From NCBI GenBank assembly GCA_913060815.1, contig CAJXSZ010000002.1, positions 248,001-312,000 of the forward strand: a stretch of 64,000 bases of DNA, in the 5' to 3' direction. The stretch comes from an uncultured Sulfitobacter sp. GTDB lineage: Bacteria; Pseudomonadota; Alphaproteobacteria; Rhodobacterales; Rhodobacteraceae. This document shows, one piece after another, positions 1 to 8,583 of the stretch; position 1 is the first letter of the stretch, and every line of letters starts with the position of its first letter. Both the position numbers and the translations under genes were made by a program. The notes under the pieces were generated by a model. The model made no database searches. It saw only the letters and a list, made by a program, of their open reading frames with translations, and had not been told where the DNA came from.

Positions 1-229
1 TTTCCATGACGGCCTCTTTATGCGGTATCGTGATGTTGACCCCGACAAAGCCCATAGTGGGCAACGTACGCAGAACATTTTCGAGGTTGTCAGCACTCAC
101 ATCCATGGGGATGTAATGGCCGGGTATCCCATAAGTTTTAAGCCAGTGGCGATGCAACTGTGGCGATTTTGAATGCGCAATAGGGGAGCCGATGACACCA
201 GCGAGGGGAATACGGGAAAGTTCGGTCAT
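1..229 (-). CDS. aroE: Shikimate dehydrogenase AroE (N-terminal part, cut by window edge)
   Basis: Shikimate dehydrogenase reduces 3-dehydroshikimate to shikimate with NADPH in the cytosolic aromatic amino acid pathway. Only the first 76 residues lie in the window. They contain the substrate-binding segment GVIGSPIAHSKSP near the N-terminus and the NITIPHK motif, whose lysine is the catalytic base of this family. The ATG at 229 shares four bases (ATGA) with the maf stop codon, so the two leftward genes are probably translationally coupled. The NADP-binding domain and stop codon lie left of position 1. Identification rests on two family-defining motifs in the right order. Confidence 0.93.
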   Translation of the reverse strand, partial: MTELSRIPLAGVIGSPIAHSKSPQLHRHWLKTYGIPGHYIPMDVSADNLENVLRTLPTMGFVGVNITIPHKEAVME

Positions 230-825
230 TGAGCAATATCTCCACGTAGCGTTAGGTAGTTCAGGATTTCCAACAAAGGCATGCCGAGGACGTTAAAGTA
301 ATCCCCCTCAATACGCGAGAACAGCCGCACACCCTCTTCCTCGAGCTTATAGGCACCCACAGCGTGTCGTATGCTGTCCCAATTGCGCTCGACATAATCT
401 GTGAGGTAAGGGTCGCTTGCATCACGCATACGTAATCGGACAACTCCGATGTGGCGCCAAAGCGGTTTGCCGTCCTCGTAGATTACAGCCGCGGACAGCA
501 GTGTATGCCGATCACCGCGCATTGATTGAAGCTGTGCCAGTGCTTGTTCTGGCGTTTCAGGCTTGCTCAGGAGGTTTCCACCGTGTTCCAATACCTGATC
601 ACAGCCGATAACCAAGGCACCGGCATTCTTGTCACTTACCTTCGAGGCTTTCATTTCGGCCAACGCATCGGCAATATCGCGCGGTGGTGCACCCTCGGAA
701 ACGAGCGATGCTTTGATCATCTCTTCGTCTACACGCGCAACCTGCACCTCATGCGCGACGGCTGCCCGAGTCAGCATCTGAGTTCGGATGCTGGAACCAG
801 ACGCCAGGATGATGGGGACACTCAT
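226..825 (-). CDS. maf: Maf-family nucleoside triphosphate pyrophosphatase
   Basis: Maf proteins hydrolyse non-canonical or excess nucleoside triphosphates to monophosphates and are linked to septum and cell-cycle control. The 199-aa product has the expected length. It carries the N-terminal phosphate-binding segment LASGSSIR (residues 7-14), the acidic GCDQVL (74-79), KPET (88-91), and the C-terminal SIRHAVGAYKLEEEG and LGMPL segments. The start codon touches a perfect DnaA box (825-833), so transcription of maf begins at or inside the putative origin. Its stop overlaps the aroE start by four bases. The substrate range (dTTP/UTP type or YceF/m7GTP type) cannot be settled by eye. Confidence 0.93.
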   Translation of the reverse strand: MSVPIILASGSSIRTQMLTRAAVAHEVQVARVDEEMIKASLVSEGAPPRDIADALAEMKASKVSDKNAGALVIGCDQVLEHGGNLLSKPETPEQALAQLQSMRGDRHTLLSAAVIYEDGKPLWRHIGVVRLRMRDASDPYLTDYVERNWDSIRHAVGAYKLEEEGVRLFSRIEGDYFNVLGMPLLEILNYLTLRGDIAQ

Positions 826-833
826 GTGGATAA
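825..833 (-). promoter_or_regulatory. DnaA box (perfect)
   Basis: The plus strand reads TGTGGATAA, that is TTATCCACA on the minus strand, matching the high-affinity TTATNCACA consensus. Its first base belongs to the maf start codon, so DnaA bound here would also cover the maf translation start region. Confidence 0.75.
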
Positions 834-846
834 CTCATGCATAGTC

Positions 847-862
847 TTAAGGATTTCCTAAC
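847..862 (+). promoter_or_regulatory. CtrA-like site (TTAA-N7-CTAAC)
   Basis: TTAA, seven bases, then CTAAC differs by one base from the alphaproteobacterial CtrA consensus TTAA-N7-TTAAC. It lies 14 bp from a perfect DnaA box inside the putative origin. In Caulobacter, CtrA sites in the origin repress initiation; whether this lineage uses CtrA this way is not known from the sequence, and a match this short can arise by chance in AT-rich DNA. Confidence 0.3.
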
Positions 863-1005
863 AACAAGGTGTCGACAATTAGGGAGCCAAGTTCAAGAGG
901 GGGAGAAGTGCATACTTCCACCTTTGAACCACCAGATTCCCCCACCGTGGAAAAGAACAATTCTACGGTTTAGTAACTTGAGTGAGGGCAACTAAACTCA
1001 CAGTC

Positions 1006-1014
1006 TTATCCACA
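1006..1014 (+). promoter_or_regulatory. DnaA box (perfect)
   Basis: The sequence TTATCCACA is an exact consensus DnaA box. It lies 33 bp before the AT-rich stretch at 1047-1072, a spacing compatible with DnaA-driven strand opening. Confidence 0.8.
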
Positions 1015-1122
1015 AATTTTGACCAGTTCGGCTTCCATCAAGTATTTGGAATATAATATAAAAATTTTCATTCTGAAAGATATCAACCATCTCTTTGCTG
1101 CTCGCGAAAAGACTATGACGTT

Positions 1123-1147
1123 CTGGGGATAAGAATTTGATCCACAG
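1123..1147. promoter_or_regulatory. Inverted pair of near-consensus DnaA boxes
   Basis: TGGGGATAA (1124-1132) and TGATCCACA (1138-1146) each differ from a DnaA box by one base. They point toward each other as an imperfect inverted repeat, CTGGGGAT...ATCCACAG. They are followed by the AT-rich run 1164-1205 just upstream of hemJ. They are probably lower-affinity DnaA sites. Confidence 0.55.
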
Positions 1148-1230
1148 ATTTTCGCGTGCCTACTTAAAACAACAATCTTTCTTTCTTTACTTATTATTAT
1201 AAAGAGAGGGCCAAGAGCGGAGAGAAAACT

Positions 1231-1680
1231 ATGGGTGATATCCTGAGCACGGCGTATCCTTGGATCAAGGGTATTCATATTATGGCGGTGATCTCATGGA
1301 TGGCAGGGTTGTTCTATCTTCCGCGCCTTATGGTGCACCATACAGAGCGTGTGGGCCTTAGCGGAGAAACCCATGATCTGTTTGCAATGATGGAGTACAA
1401 GCTGGCCAAAGTGATCATGCAGCCTGCGATGATGGCAACGTGGATCTTCGGTCTGTTGTTGGTATCGACGCCTGGTATTGTCTACTGGGGTGATGTTTGG
1501 CCATGGCTCAAAGGGGCGGGAGTTATCGCTATGACCGTTTTTCACGTCTGGCTGATGCGGCGCATGCGTGGCTTTCAGGCGGGTGAGAATACCATGACCG
1601 GCAAGCAATACCGCATGATGAATGAGGTGCCCACGCTGCTGATGATCCTGATCGTCTTTTCGGTGACGGTGAAGTTCTAA
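1231..1680 (+). CDS. hemJ: Protoporphyrinogen IX oxidase HemJ (CopD-like membrane protein)
   Basis: HemJ oxidises protoporphyrinogen IX to protoporphyrin IX in the inner membrane, the penultimate step of haem synthesis in bacteria lacking HemY or HemG. The 149-aa product has four likely membrane segments. It shows the family's N-terminal KGIHIMAVISWMAGLFYLPR stretch with the conserved histidine, a conserved lysine-rich loop (MEYKLAKVIMQPAM) and the C-terminal NEVPTLLMI segment. It begins next to the candidate origin, with a purine-rich AGAGAAA just before the ATG. Position between the origin and rho is common in Rhodobacterales. The terminal enzyme hemH is also in the window (37828-38907). 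Confidence 0.93.
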   Translation: MGDILSTAYPWIKGIHIMAVISWMAGLFYLPRLMVHHTERVGLSGETHDLFAMMEYKLAKVIMQPAMMATWIFGLLLVSTPGIVYWGDVWPWLKGAGVIAMTVFHVWLMRRMRGFQAGENTMTGKQYRMMNEVPTLLMILIVFSVTVKF

Positions 1681-4403: not shown

Positions 4404-6275
4404 TTGTTTCACGTGAAACATTTTGATGTCATTGTAATTGGTGGCGGTCATGCAGGTGCAGATGCTGCTCATGCTGCCGCAAGGCTTGGAGCGAATACCG
4501 CGCTGTTGACAATGTCCCGTGAGACAATTGGTGTGATGTCCTGCAATCCAGCAATCGGAGGTCTAGGCAAGGGGCATCTCGTTAGAGAGATTGATGCTTT
4601 AGACGGTGTTATGGGTCGGGTAGCTGATGCCGCGGGTATTCAGTTTAGGCTGTTGAACCGCCGCAAGGGGCCAGCGGTTCAAGGACCGCGAACGCAGGCT
4701 GACCGCGAGATCTATCGCACACAAATGCTTGGAGAAATTGAAAGTCACCCTCACATAACGATCATTGAGGGAGAGGCTATCGATTTTATGATGGAAGGGG
4801 AGCGCGTTGTTGGCGTCAAAATGCAGAACGATGTTGAACTTCAAGGCGCCGCAGTGATCTTGACTACTGGAACGTTTCTGCGTGGCGTAATCCACATTGG
4901 AGATGTTCAGAAGGCTGGTGGGAGGATGGGTGATCGGCCGTCTCAACTTTTAGCGAAACGAATTGACGGCTTCGGTCTGAATTTAGGGCGACTGAAAACA
5001 GGAACGCCTCCACGGTTGAATGGAAATACAATCGACTGGCAGGGCTTGGAAATGCAGCCGGCCGATGAGGTGCCGTCCCTTTTCTCATTCCTGTCTAAGG
5101 GTCCGAGCGCGCGCCAAATTTCTTGTGGGATCACTCACACAAATGAGAAAACACATGAGATAATTCGAAATAACCTCGAAAATTCAGCGATGTATGGTGG
5201 ACATATTGACGGCATTGGTCCGAGATATTGTCCATCCATTGAGGATAAGGTCGTTCGTTTTGCGGACAAGACGTCCCATCAGGTTTTTCTGGAGCCAGAA
5301 GGGCTAGATGTTTCGACAGTGTATCCTAATGGTATTTCGACTTCCTTGCCCATAGCCATTCAGGAGCAGTATGTCAGGTCGATTGTAGGGCTCGAGAACG
5401 TTGAGATCATGCAGCCGGGTTATGCCATTGAGTACGACTACGTAGACCCCCGTGCCCTTAAGCAAACCCTGGAATTGAAATCCGTTCCTGGATTGTACCT
5501 TGCAGGGCAGATCAATGGCACGACTGGATACGAGGAGGCCGCAGCGCAGGGTCTCGTCGCGGGATTAAACGCGGCGCTTTCGGCTCAGGGCCGTGATCCT
5601 ATCGTTTTCAGCCGAACTGAAAGCTATATCGGCGTTATGATCGATGATTTGACGACGCGGGGGGTGACTGAACCGTATAGGATGTTTACGTCTCGCGCCG
5701 AGTTCAGATTGTCTTTGAGAGCGGATAATGCGGATCAACGCCTTACCCCACTGGGTATCAAGTTGGAATGTGTCTCAGAAGTCCGTCGTGATCAATTTAA
5801 TCAGAAGATGGACAAGTTGGGCTCCTGTCATGAACTCTTGAACAGCAAGAGCTTCTCACCAAAGGAAGCAGCGGAAATCGGCGTCCCGCTTAGCAAGGAC
5901 GGGCAGCGTCGTACTGCATTTCAGCTTCTTGGACTGCCGAAAGTCTCCTTTTCTTCAGTTCAGTCTCTTGATCCGGAATTCTCCCTGATTGAAGATGGTG
6001 TAGGAGAGCAGGTCGCAAATGATGCGCTTTATGCCAACTATGTGAAACGACAGGAGAATGACGTGGCAGCGTTGCGCAAAGACGAAGGTGAGCGCATCTC
6101 AAGCGATTTCGATTATTCCTCCATTGACGGTCTGTCGAATGAGTTGAAATCAAAGCTCTCTTTGGCACGGCCCGAAAATTTGGCTCAGGCCTCCAGAATT
6201 GACGGTATGACACCTGCAGCGTTAACGCTTCTTTTGGCGATCATTCGGCGTGACAGAACGAAGAAGACTGCATAG
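4404..6275 (+). CDS. mnmG: tRNA uridine-5-carboxymethylaminomethyl synthesis enzyme MnmG
   Basis: MnmG is the FAD-containing partner of MnmE in tRNA U34 modification. The product (623 aa from the TTG at 4404) begins with a dinucleotide-binding motif, [11 protein letters not shown], has the family signature [23 protein letters not shown] and ends in the helical MnmE-binding domain. The start is ambiguous because a parS site (4405-4420) covers it: TTG at 4404 gives the N-terminus MFHVKH, while GTG at 4413 gives MKHFDV and has AGGA nine bases upstream. I favour GTG 4413 on ribosome-binding grounds, but give the longer form as the outer limit. The stop overlaps the rsmG start by one base. Confidence 0.96.
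4405..4420. promoter_or_regulatory. parS: parS site 1 (ParB-binding palindrome)
   Basis: The 16-bp perfect palindrome TGTTTCACGTGAAACA is the canonical chromosomal parS sequence. It lies across the mnmG translation start, about 3.4 kb from the candidate origin and 3.3 kb before parB. ParB loads here to form the partition complex segregated by ParA. The central GTG is a possible mnmG start codon. Confidence 0.95.
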
Positions 6276-6880
6276 TGGTTGATGCATTAGAAAATGTTTC
6301 ACGTGAAACAATCGATGATCTTCGTCAGTTTGAAGCGCTTGTGTTAAAGTGGACGAAAAAGATTAATCTTGTATCCAACTCAGACGCTTCCCAGATCTGG
6401 GAACGGCACATACTGGACTCGGTACAGGTCTACAATCTTGCAGGTAAAAGTGGTGATTGGCTCGATATTGGGAGCGGAGGCGGGTTTCCAGGGATCGTTG
6501 CAGCAATATTATCAAAGAGAAGCGGTGATGGGAGATCATTTACGCTCGTCGACAGTGATCAGCGAAAATGTGCGTTCCTTCGGACTGTAGCCAGAGAGTT
6601 AGAGTTAAACGTTACCGTACTCGCAGCCCGTGTAGAGGAGATTCCACCGTTTAACGCGTCGGTTCTGTCAGCCCGCGCTATGGATAGCCTTGCTAGTCTT
6701 CTTGGTCACAGCGAGCGCCACCTAAGCGAGGGGGGAATCGCCCTTTTTCCAAAGGGTGAAAGGTGGAAGAAAGAGCATAAGCTTGCGCAACACAAATGGT
6801 CGTATAGCTTTGAGGCAATCCCGAGTCTGACTAATCCCCGCGCAACCATACTTAAGATTGAGGAGCTATCGCGTGTCTGA
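6275..6880 (+). CDS. rsmG: 16S rRNA (guanine-527-N7)-methyltransferase RsmG
   Basis: RsmG methylates G527 in the 530 loop of 16S rRNA, using S-adenosylmethionine. The 201-aa product has the N-terminal helical region typical of GidB proteins and the SAM-binding motif DIGSGGGFPGI. The GTG start at 6275 overlaps the mnmG stop (TAG 6273-6275) by one base; no closer in-frame ATG exists. Codons 7-13 (NVSRETI) are dictated by a second parS palindrome at 6295-6310. The gene runs eight bases into parA. Confidence 0.95.
   Translation: MVDALENVSRETIDDLRQFEALVLKWTKKINLVSNSDASQIWERHILDSVQVYNLAGKSGDWLDIGSGGGFPGIVAAILSKRSGDGRSFTLVDSDQRKCAFLRTVARELELNVTVLAARVEEIPPFNASVLSARAMDSLASLLGHSERHLSEGGIALFPKGERWKKEHKLAQHKWSYSFEAIPSLTNPRATILKIEELSRV
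6295..6310. promoter_or_regulatory. parS: parS site 2 (ParB-binding palindrome)
   Basis: This is a second exact copy of TGTTTCACGTGAAACA, 1,890 bp from the first and inside the beginning of the rsmG reading frame, where it encodes the residues N-V-S-R-E-T. Two perfect sites close to parAB support ParB spreading over the mnmG-parB block. Confidence 0.95.
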
Positions 6881-7700
6881 TCTCTCTCGTCCGCAGGGAC
6901 CAAAAATCATAGCGGTTGCCAATCAAAAGGGTGGTGTCGGTAAAACGACAACAACGATCAATCTTGCTGCGGCTCTGGCAGAGAAAAAGAAGAAAGTCCT
7001 CGTCATTGATCTTGATCCGCAAGGAAACGCTTCGACAGGTTTAGGTATCGACCTTGAGGATCGGGAGTTCACCACCTATGAACTTCTCTTAGAAGATCTT
7101 GATCTGAATGACGTTATTCTAAAAACATCAACTGAAAACCTGTTTATTGTGCCAGCTACGGTAGACCTAAGCTCTGCTGATTTGGAATTGCTTTCGAACG
7201 AGAAGCGGAGTTTTCTGTTGCATGATGCCCTGCGGCAAACACAGATGGATAGCTTTGAATTCGATTATATTCTAATTGATTGCCCACCATCACTTAATCT
7301 GTTGACAGTTAATGCAATGATCGGAGCTCATTCTGTTCTCGTCCCCTTGCAAAGCGAGTTTTTTGCGCTTGAAGGGTTATCCCAGCTTATGCTGACAATC
7401 CGTGAGGTGCGCCAGACAGGAAACAAGGATCTACGGATCGAAGGAATTGTCCTTACAATGTATGATCGGCGTAACAACCTCTCGCAGCAGGTCGAACAGG
7501 ATGCCCGCGATAATCTAGGTGAGCTGGTTTTTAAGACGATGATTCCCCGAAATGTGAGGGTCAGCGAGGCGCCAAGCTTTGCAATGCCGGTACTGGCTTA
7601 TGATTCCCTGTCCAAAGGGGCCAAAGCCTATCGTGATTTAGCTACAGAACTACTATCCAACAACGAAGTCAGCGTAAAAGAGGTGCAGAATGTCCAATAA
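6873..7700 (+). CDS. parA: Chromosome partitioning ATPase ParA
   Basis: ParA is a deviant Walker-type ATPase that forms a nucleoid-bound gradient pulling ParB-parS complexes toward the pole. The 275-aa product has the signature KGGVGKTT (19-26), DLDPQGNASTGLG and the DCPPSLNLLT segment. Chromosomal ParA without an N-terminal helix-turn-helix is the form expected beside oriC. The GTG at 6873 is chosen because AGGAG (6861-6865) lies seven bases upstream and homologues begin just before this motif; the gene therefore overlaps rsmG by eight bases. It overlaps parB by 11 bases. Confidence 0.97.
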   Translation: MSDLSRPQGPKIIAVANQKGGVGKTTTTINLAAALAEKKKKVLVIDLDPQGNASTGLGIDLEDREFTTYELLLEDLDLNDVILKTSTENLFIVPATVDLSSADLELLSNEKRSFLLHDALRQTQMDSFEFDYILIDCPPSLNLLTVNAMIGAHSVLVPLQSEFFALEGLSQLMLTIREVRQTGNKDLRIEGIVLTMYDRRNNLSQQVEQDARDNLGELVFKTMIPRNVRVSEAPSFAMPVLAYDSLSKGAKAYRDLATELLSNNEVSVKEVQNVQ

Positions 7701-8583
7701 TAGAGACCGTAAGCGAGGCCTTGGCCGCGGGTTGTCTGCGTTGATGGCAGATGTGAATGAGACCGAAACGGTTGCTAAAAGTGGTCCGTCAGCTGCAGAC
7801 CAGCTCGTTCCGATTGAGCAGATTTCCCCAAATCCTGATCAGCCGCGCAAGCAATTTGTTCAGGACGACTTGGATGATCTCGCTGCTTCGATAAAGGAGA
7901 AGGGGGTTCTACAGCCTCTTATTGTGCGCCAGACTGGTGAGAAGCAGTTTGAAATCGTTGCGGGTGAGCGCCGCTGGCGTGCTGCACAGATGGCTCAACT
8001 GCATGCGTTGCCTGTTATCGTGCGGGAGTTCAGCGACATCGAGGTGCTCGAAGTAGCTATCATCGAGAATATTCAGCGCGCTGATCTGAACGCTGCGGAA
8101 GAGGCTGCTGGATATCGTCAGCTAATGGACAAATTTGGACACACTCAGGAGAAGATGGCCGAAGCGCTTGGGAAAAGCCGAAGTCACATTGCAAATCTTC
8201 TTAGACTGCTGAACCTGCCCGATGCTGTACTTGCACTACTTCGCAACGGACAATTGAGCAGCGGACATGCCAGAGCGTTGATCCCAGCACAAGATCCTGA
8301 AAAGCTTGCGCAGCAGGTGATAAAAGGTGGCCTCTCTGTCCGAGCTACTGAGGCTTTGGTTAAGAATGAGCAAGCAGGTTCAGCGGATAAGGCTAAATCT
8401 CAAGGGAACACTTCAAGTGAGAAGGATGCGGACACAAAGGCGCTTGAAGGTGATTTGGCAGCAAATCTCGGGATGAAAGTAACACTGTCTCACAAGCCCG
8501 GGCAAGAAAATGGCCAACTCTCAATCCAGTATAAGTCGCTAGATGAGCTTGATGAGCTTTGCAGGCTGCTGGGCGGAAGTTAG
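7690..8583 (+). CDS. parB: Chromosome partitioning protein ParB
   Basis: ParB is the CTP-dependent clamp that loads at parS and spreads along DNA. The 297-aa product opens with the basic RGLGRGLSAL (9-18), which commonly contacts ParA. It contains the CTP-binding box GERRWRAAQ (92-100) and ENIQRADLN, the central helix-turn-helix region (QEKMAEALGKSRSHIANLLRL) and a C-terminal dimerisation region after a polar linker. Both parS sites it should bind lie within 3.3 kb upstream. Its stop shares four bases with the stop of convergent hemW. Confidence 0.97.
   Translation: MSNNRDRKRGLGRGLSALMADVNETETVAKSGPSAADQLVPIEQISPNPDQPRKQFVQDDLDDLAASIKEKGVLQPLIVRQTGEKQFEIVAGERRWRAAQMAQLHALPVIVREFSDIEVLEVAIIENIQRADLNAAEEAAGYRQLMDKFGHTQEKMAEALGKSRSHIANLLRLLNLPDAVLALLRNGQLSSGHARALIPAQDPEKLAQQVIKGGLSVRATEALVKNEQAGSADKAKSQGNTSSEKDADTKALEGDLAANLGMKVTLSHKPGQENGQLSIQYKSLDELDELCRLLGGS

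Follow-up and report, generated by a model that had tools for sequence, protein, structure and literature searches.

A conserved DnaA-box cluster between maf and hemJ is the predicted chromosomal replication origin of Sulfitobacter

The DNA analysed here is a stretch of 64,000 nucleotides (the window), corresponding to C2:248001-312000 of an uncultured Sulfitobacter genome (G000; 3.5 Mb in 45 contigs). Near its left end, maf and hemJ are transcribed divergently (Table 1); the hemJ product scored well over the Pfam cut-off and just below the NCBIfam cut-off. The rightward gene order is hemJ, rho, mnmE, mnmG, rsmG, parA and parB, and the leftward order is maf, aroE, coaE, a dnaQ-like exonuclease gene, secB, fxsA and a Tim44-like gene. 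The parAB genes and two exact parS sites lie 3 to 8 kb from the maf-hemJ gap. These matches and their order agree with the preliminary description of this DNA, in which genes diverged from the gap, maf to the left and hemJ to the right, with the par locus following. As that description had also noted, hemE and dnaA are missing here: hemE was located on a different contig (C33), and dnaA on the same contig, 41.5 kb to the left of the window start, with a dnaN-like frame (named by eye) directly after it. The 30 kb to the left of the window gave no Rfam match at gathering scores. Among genomes with both genes on one contig, the distance between dnaA and hemJ ranged from 40 to 390 kb. Positions 142-246 of the DnaA model were also matched at nine sites on C1 and C2 of genome G002, by eight frames of 270 aa and a shorter ninth, which are probably copies of an insertion-sequence ATPase gene.

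Table 1. Features in and around the maf-hemJ gap, numbered from the first nucleotide of the window
Feature	Position	Strand	Basis or conservation
maf (Maf-family nucleotide pyrophosphatase), left flank	226-825	-	PF02545, E = 3.3e-42
DnaA box A, exact TTATCCACA; overlaps the start codon of maf	825-833	-	Most of 30 family loci have a similar minus-strand box ~0 or +11 from the start of maf
CtrA-like TTAA-N7-TTAA, one mismatch, next to box A (tentative)	847-861	+	8 of 21 Sulfitobacter loci carry the exact motif at +22/23 from maf
Tentative DnaA-like site, weak (TTTTCCACG, two mismatches), where box B is conserved	946-954	-	Block conserved in the alignment; several family loci have minus-strand boxes at +118 to +146
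DnaA box C, exact TTATCCACA	1006-1014	+	Many family loci have a plus-strand box at ~+170 to +200
AT-rich stretch 1, least stable 50-bp segment of the 64 kb, with a weak IHF-like match inside	1037-1086		Stability ranking
Conserved origin core (predicted): box D, box E, 13-bp spacer, CTA, AT tract (92 bp)	1124-1215	+	Model R1, E = 5.7e-20
DnaA box D, TTATCCCCA, one mismatch	1124-1132	-	Minus-strand box nearby in about half of 30 family loci
DnaA box E, TGATCCACA, one mismatch	1138-1146	+	All 20 other aligned Sulfitobacter loci read TAATCCACA
Spacer, 13 bp, box E to first trio	1147-1159	+	13 in 40 of 49 loci by script
Proposed unwinding element: CTA CTT (other strand 3'-GAT GAA-5'), then pyrimidine-rich AT tract	1160-1205	+	Second least stable segment; cumulative G-C minimum at 1190
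hemJ, right flank	1231-1680	+	PF03653, E = 8.1e-55
parS site, exact	4405-4420	+	
parS site, exact	6295-6310	+	
parA and parB	6858-8583	+	

The four DnaA boxes claimed earlier for the gap (A, C, D and E) were recovered at exactly the positions given, spanning 322 bp, with boxes D and E forming an inverted one-mismatch pair. Of the limits first set for the region, 826-1230, the start needed a small adjustment, as 826 trims one base off box A. Across the 64 kb, 15 boxes with at most one mismatch were counted against 7.8 (SD, 2.75) expected, a number reached in 2 of 100 shuffles. Four such boxes inside 322 bp were seen in none of 200 dinucleotide shuffles, in which the per-shuffle maximum was 3 (in 3 of the 200), so the gap holds a box cluster beyond chance, as expected of an oriC. 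The two AT-rich stretches noted at 1047-1072 and 1164-1205 coincided with the two least stable segments of the window. They ranked first and second for low nearest-neighbor stability among all 40- and 50-bp segments (40-bp/50-bp starts at 1043/1037 and 1164/1159), placing unstable AT-rich DNA, a second feature expected of an oriC, beside the boxes.

Cumulative G-C along 112 contiguous kb of the contig (C2:200001-312000) reached its minimum at window position 1190, and the two-mean change point fell at 1204. The skew turn anticipated for 0.8-1.2 kb was thus found on the contig itself, over 112 kb rather than the whole replicon. For comparison, two-mean change points were determined over 40 kb on either side of hemJ in 14 genomes. 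The change point fell within 2.7 kb of hemJ in 11 of the 14 and within 200 bp in 8, and the pooled change point was at +114 bp; the three genomes that disagreed were G008 (-16.9 kb), G019 (-18.3 kb) and G010 (-19.7 kb). Since divergent gene orientation alone gives some local change in skew, we regard these turns as support rather than proof. Sampling of 20 stretches of G014 gave negative skew from 2.4 to 3.9 Mb and positive skew from 0.12 to 2.1 Mb, except at 300-320 kb. One genome stood apart from the 13 others: in G010 (C7, around 1054536) the maf-hemJ core was present, yet the right side was slightly negative, with no turn to positive, possibly reflecting a recent inversion.

An origin beside dnaA-dnaN, as in many bacteria, would lie 41.5 kb to the left of the window. 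Such a location would suit the dnaN-like frame that directly follows dnaA, and the skew on the contig is nearly flat from dnaA to hemJ; nevertheless, it is scarcely credible given that the 4.3 kb around dnaA contained no DnaA box with at most one mismatch and that no skew turn was found at dnaA in two genomes sampled for this purpose. In these genomes (G012 and G013), dnaA is ~385 kb off: to the left of hemJ, 12 of 14 and 12 of 15 sampled stretches, respectively, were negative, on both sides of dnaA, and to the right of hemJ all of them (6 of 6 and 5 of 5) were positive, placing the turn at hemJ.

The cumulative minimum was less sharply placed than the change point, falling within 2 kb of hemJ in only 5 of the 14 genomes, with the pooled minimum at -17.9 kb; these minima are broad because the skew to the left of hemJ is nearly flat. 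A weaker second turn near -17 to -18 kb, in the interval 16-20 kb to the left of hemJ, was visible in G008, in G019 and in the pooled profile, at a place without a DnaA-box cluster. We considered whether the origin might lie 15-20 kb to the left of maf, with the maf-hemJ gap serving as an accessory DnaA-binding site. This arrangement would account for the pooled cumulative minimum and for the change points of G008 and G019, but it appears extremely unlikely in view of the distribution of boxes. In each of the 14 genomes, boxes were densest at the maf-hemJ gap when compared with 40 kb to its left and right, with 2 to 6 boxes there and at most 2 in any other 420-bp segment of that range. The pooled change point and the minimum of the contig itself likewise fall at the gap rather than to its left.

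A hemJ match was obtained in 33 of 40 genomes, including the genome under study. In all 20 other Sulfitobacter loci, maf and hemJ were divergent with ~390-410 bp between them, and the alignment of these loci covered box A, the region of the weak box B, box C and box D, with box E and the sequence downstream of it the most conserved. The 21 Sulfitobacter loci contained 84 boxes with at most one mismatch where 2.9 were expected, and the 30 family loci contained 106 where 4.2 were expected; the genome under study and G014 belong to both sets. The preliminary description had put four boxes together, whereas conservation is highest in the last ~90 bp (1124-1215).

A sequence model of this core, R1, found a single match in the genome under study even at E ≤ 10 (150 of 177 first-look candidates scored). 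At E ≤ 0.01 it matched 128 of 199 family genomes, the present one and G014 among them, once in each except G218, which had two matches; under filters that lose weak matches, no core match was obtained in the remaining 71 of the 199. The neighborhood was checked in the best 30 of the matched family loci, which represent 28 further genera, the present genome and G014. The core was adjoined by maf in all 30 and by hemJ in 24, and in the other 6 a rho gene, its product 87-93% identical to the Rho encoded here, starts ~460-580 bp from the maf start. An exact pattern scan of genome contigs returned 19 core stretches, possibly leaving out the record under study, and since all were from Sulfitobacter, Roseobacter or Ascidiaceihabitans, the exact form is narrow and the wider reach of the core rests on R1. 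Beyond the family, R1 is weak (best E, 1.6e-4): it matched 26 of 241 genomes of the class, 22 of them outside the family, with ~2 expected by chance at the threshold. COG1806 was located in 10 of these 22. R1 lay 316-348 bp upstream of where the COG1806 match begins in 7 (G310, G312, G322, G325, G326, G327 and G354) and on a different contig from COG1806 in the other 3 (G272, G282 and G358). The core described here starts 299 bp from the maf start.

These data bear on another view of the gap, in which it would hold only the divergent promoters of maf and hemJ together with regulatory DnaA boxes, and the conserved tract would be a leader of hemJ. In favor of this view, the gap separates divergent genes, the start of maf is overlapped by box A and the hemJ start codon lies near the end of the tract. 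However, the core is kept in the 6 of 30 loci where rho replaces hemJ as the neighbor, and it is therefore not a hemJ leader. Its place upstream of COG1806 in seven genomes of other families and the skew turn at the gap also argue against a promoter role alone, which we consider very unlikely. The boxes, the unstable DNA, the skew turn, the synteny and the family-wide core instead support the candidate chromosomal origin put forward in the preliminary description, and from these observations we infer that DnaA would bind, open the DNA and initiate replication at the maf-hemJ gap. Judged from sequence, the intergenic region at 825-1230 is very probably the chromosomal replication origin (oriC) of Sulfitobacter. 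The origin of a widespread marine genus would thereby be narrowed to a compact, testable fragment, and the 92-bp core should mark the origin in many Rhodobacteraceae drafts, even where the skew is flat.

Under the proposed mechanism, DnaA would load on boxes A to E, and a filament starting from box E would extend rightwards over the 13-bp spacer and engage one strand from position 1160. The pyrimidine-rich AT tract would then melt, possibly together with AT-rich stretch 1, after which helicase would load on the opened DNA and forks would leave both ways.

Other signals were sought in the same loci. Exact TTAA-N7-TTAA sites of the CtrA type were present in 9 of the 21 Sulfitobacter loci against 0.5 expected, the ninth at +236 and the others at the position given in Table 1. 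Family-wide CtrA sites were not found, as the 30 family loci held one exact site (0.34 expected), which belonged to Sulfitobacter G014. With exact sites limited to part of the Sulfitobacter loci, CtrA control is possible in some species only. Matches to IHF with at most one mismatch numbered 22 in the 21 Sulfitobacter loci (15.5 expected; shuffle maximum, 24) and 22 in the 28 other genera (17.8 expected), counts not clearly above shuffles. A CcrM-type signal was rejected, as GANTC was not enriched (34 against 51 expected in the 30 family loci and 29 against 37 in the 21 Sulfitobacter loci).

The arrangement to the right of box E resembles the basal unwinding system (BUS) of Bacillus subtilis (PMC8287927, PMC10721633) in having a box, a 13-bp spacer, a first trio reading 3'-GAT-5' and an AT-rich tract after it. 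The BUS program prefers a 13-bp spacer, and 3'-GAT-5' is the commonest trio, above all beside the box (PMC8287927). Here the first trio, no more than 16 bp from box E, reads 3'-GAT-5'. As to the scripted spacer count, L004 also has 13 bp by its printed row, and L176 was counted via a different box, although its own box E also gives 13; L174 and L183 have no CTA after box E. A BUS, however, requires a run of three or more consecutive 3'-NAN-5' trios no farther than 16 bp from its box (PMC8287927). Box E of the present genome lacks such a run, which was found in 3 of the 21 Sulfitobacter loci and in 2 of the 28 from other genera. The module would work like a BUS but is not classed as one because the three-trio rule fails, and the predicted signal for strand opening differs from the textbook pattern in its details.

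A deviant trio without the middle adenine has been suspected (PMC8287927), and the present signal could be read as such. We raise this as a tentative and rather doubtful possibility, in which alphaproteobacterial origins would open by a deviant DnaA-trio array whose first G is constant and whose middle A is not, Sulfitobacter having a shortened, slipped version of it (CTA CTT and the AT tract). The array would be a run of 5'-C-N-[A/T]-3' triplets (captured strand, 3'-G-N-[T/A]-5') that follows the last box and a short spacer. DnaA may be specific for the first base that it captures and accept any middle base by stacking on it, as alphaproteobacterial DnaA has Tyr or Phe where that of B. subtilis has Asn.

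Evidence bearing on the array came from 30 COG1806 loci of other Alphaproteobacteria, those that scored highest among 99 genomes in which a match was obtained. Runs of at least five C-N-[ACT] (C-N-H) triplets before an AT-rich tract were present in 13 of the 30 loci compared with 1.0% of shuffles, the pattern having been chosen after some loci had been viewed, the AT-rich tract after the run being demanded and the other 17 loci falling below five. Canonical runs of at least five (N-T-N on the top strand) were present in 3 of the 30 compared with 6.0% of shuffles. The middle base on the trio strand of the 13 arrays was G in 39, A in 22, T in 18 and C in 2 of 81 cases. Within the family of the genome under study, the longest C-N-H run averaged 3.96 against 3.30 in shuffles for the 28 genera and 3.76 against 3.14 for the 21 Sulfitobacter loci, and at least three C-N-H triplets at spacers of 9-16 bp were found in 2 of the 21 Sulfitobacter loci and 9 of the 28 loci from other genera. 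What is distinctive in this family is not the C-N-H run but the run with a middle A on the trio strand (N-T-N on the top strand), which is longer than in shuffles (6.43 against 4.42 for the 28 genera; 8.00 against 4.56 for the 21 Sulfitobacter loci), and this speaks against the deviant-trio reading. Only 5 of 49 loci had a middle-A run of at least three no farther than 16 bp from box E, so the longer runs sit farther downstream.

The DnaA protein itself was aligned with B. subtilis DnaA (8btg), without gaps through the contact stretch. Asn187 of B. subtilis DnaA holds the middle adenine, and none of the DnaA contact residues is universally conserved (PMC10721633). The Asn187 position is occupied by Tyr190 in the protein encoded here, and Lys205 and Glu231 stand in the places of Arg202 and Glu228, which contact the first base. 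Across 36 alphaproteobacterial DnaA proteins, this position was Tyr in 33, Phe in 2 and His in 1; across 22 from other Pseudomonadota, it was Thr in 10, Asn in 9, Gln in 2 and Ala in 1. These counts come from the best 30 of 54 and the best 30 of 60 matches, and because only the best-scoring loci were counted, divergent DnaA proteins are under-represented. The apparent match between DnaA residue and origin sequence is suggestive, although the arrays had been noticed before the pattern was set and the family studied here prefers middle-A runs farther downstream. A contrast with the trios of non-alpha Proteobacteria was uninformative because 18 of 22 loci showed no box with at most one mismatch in the DNA covered upstream of dnaA, which ranged in length from 0 to 1494 bp; one locus (L292) has a box, 13 bp and four canonical trios. 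If true, the deviant-trio reading would tie one DnaA residue to origin sequence and extend the base-capture model to a class in which, in the family tested, the conserved box mostly does not follow the three-trio rule.

As regards its place on the chromosome, the predicted origin is best compared with those of other Alphaproteobacteria. The genes hemE and COG1806 flank the origins of Caulobacter and Rickettsia (PMC1914354). In six of six other Alphaproteobacteria checked, COG1806 lies within 3 kb of hemJ, and the gap beside it holds one to five boxes with at most one mismatch. The gene after that gap is hemE by Pfam in four (L205, L206, L208 and L209) and a ferrochelatase gene in L210; in L207 it is an ORF that, by eye, resembles URO-D over a stretch. 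In order, a neighborhood of this type comprises maf, COG1806, the gap with boxes, hemE, hemH, hemJ and rho. None of nine Sulfitobacter genomes checked gave a COG1806 (PF03618) match, and hemE lies elsewhere than beside hemJ in all 19 Sulfitobacter genomes, which leaves maf and hemJ as the flanks and fits the lack of hemE at the locus. The simplest history would be that the origin kept its place while COG1806 disappeared and hemE relocated, so that maf and hemJ came to flank it.

No description of the maf-hemJ core or of alphaproteobacterial trios was found in the literature, as judged from titles and abstract openings. Origins of this kind are already known, having been predicted with Ori-Finder in 101 Rhodobacteraceae strains, the same family, with skew, DnaA boxes and closeness to parAB as criteria, as here (Kopejtka et al. 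2019, PMC6699656). The main text of that report does not contain the words maf or hemE, and the core, the spacer and their conservation are described here instead. Compared by description rather than by sequence, the Caulobacter crescentus Cori and the hemE-COG1806 origins (PMC1914354) resemble the predicted Sulfitobacter origin in their length of ~400 bp, their DnaA boxes and their AT-rich stretch. The chromosomal position is homologous, but the flanks are maf and hemJ, not hemE and COG1806. The origin predicted here is thus ordinary in kind and at the usual place for the class, its unwinding signal being the part worth following, and it would offer a case of an origin staying put while its classic neighbors, hemE and COG1806, left.
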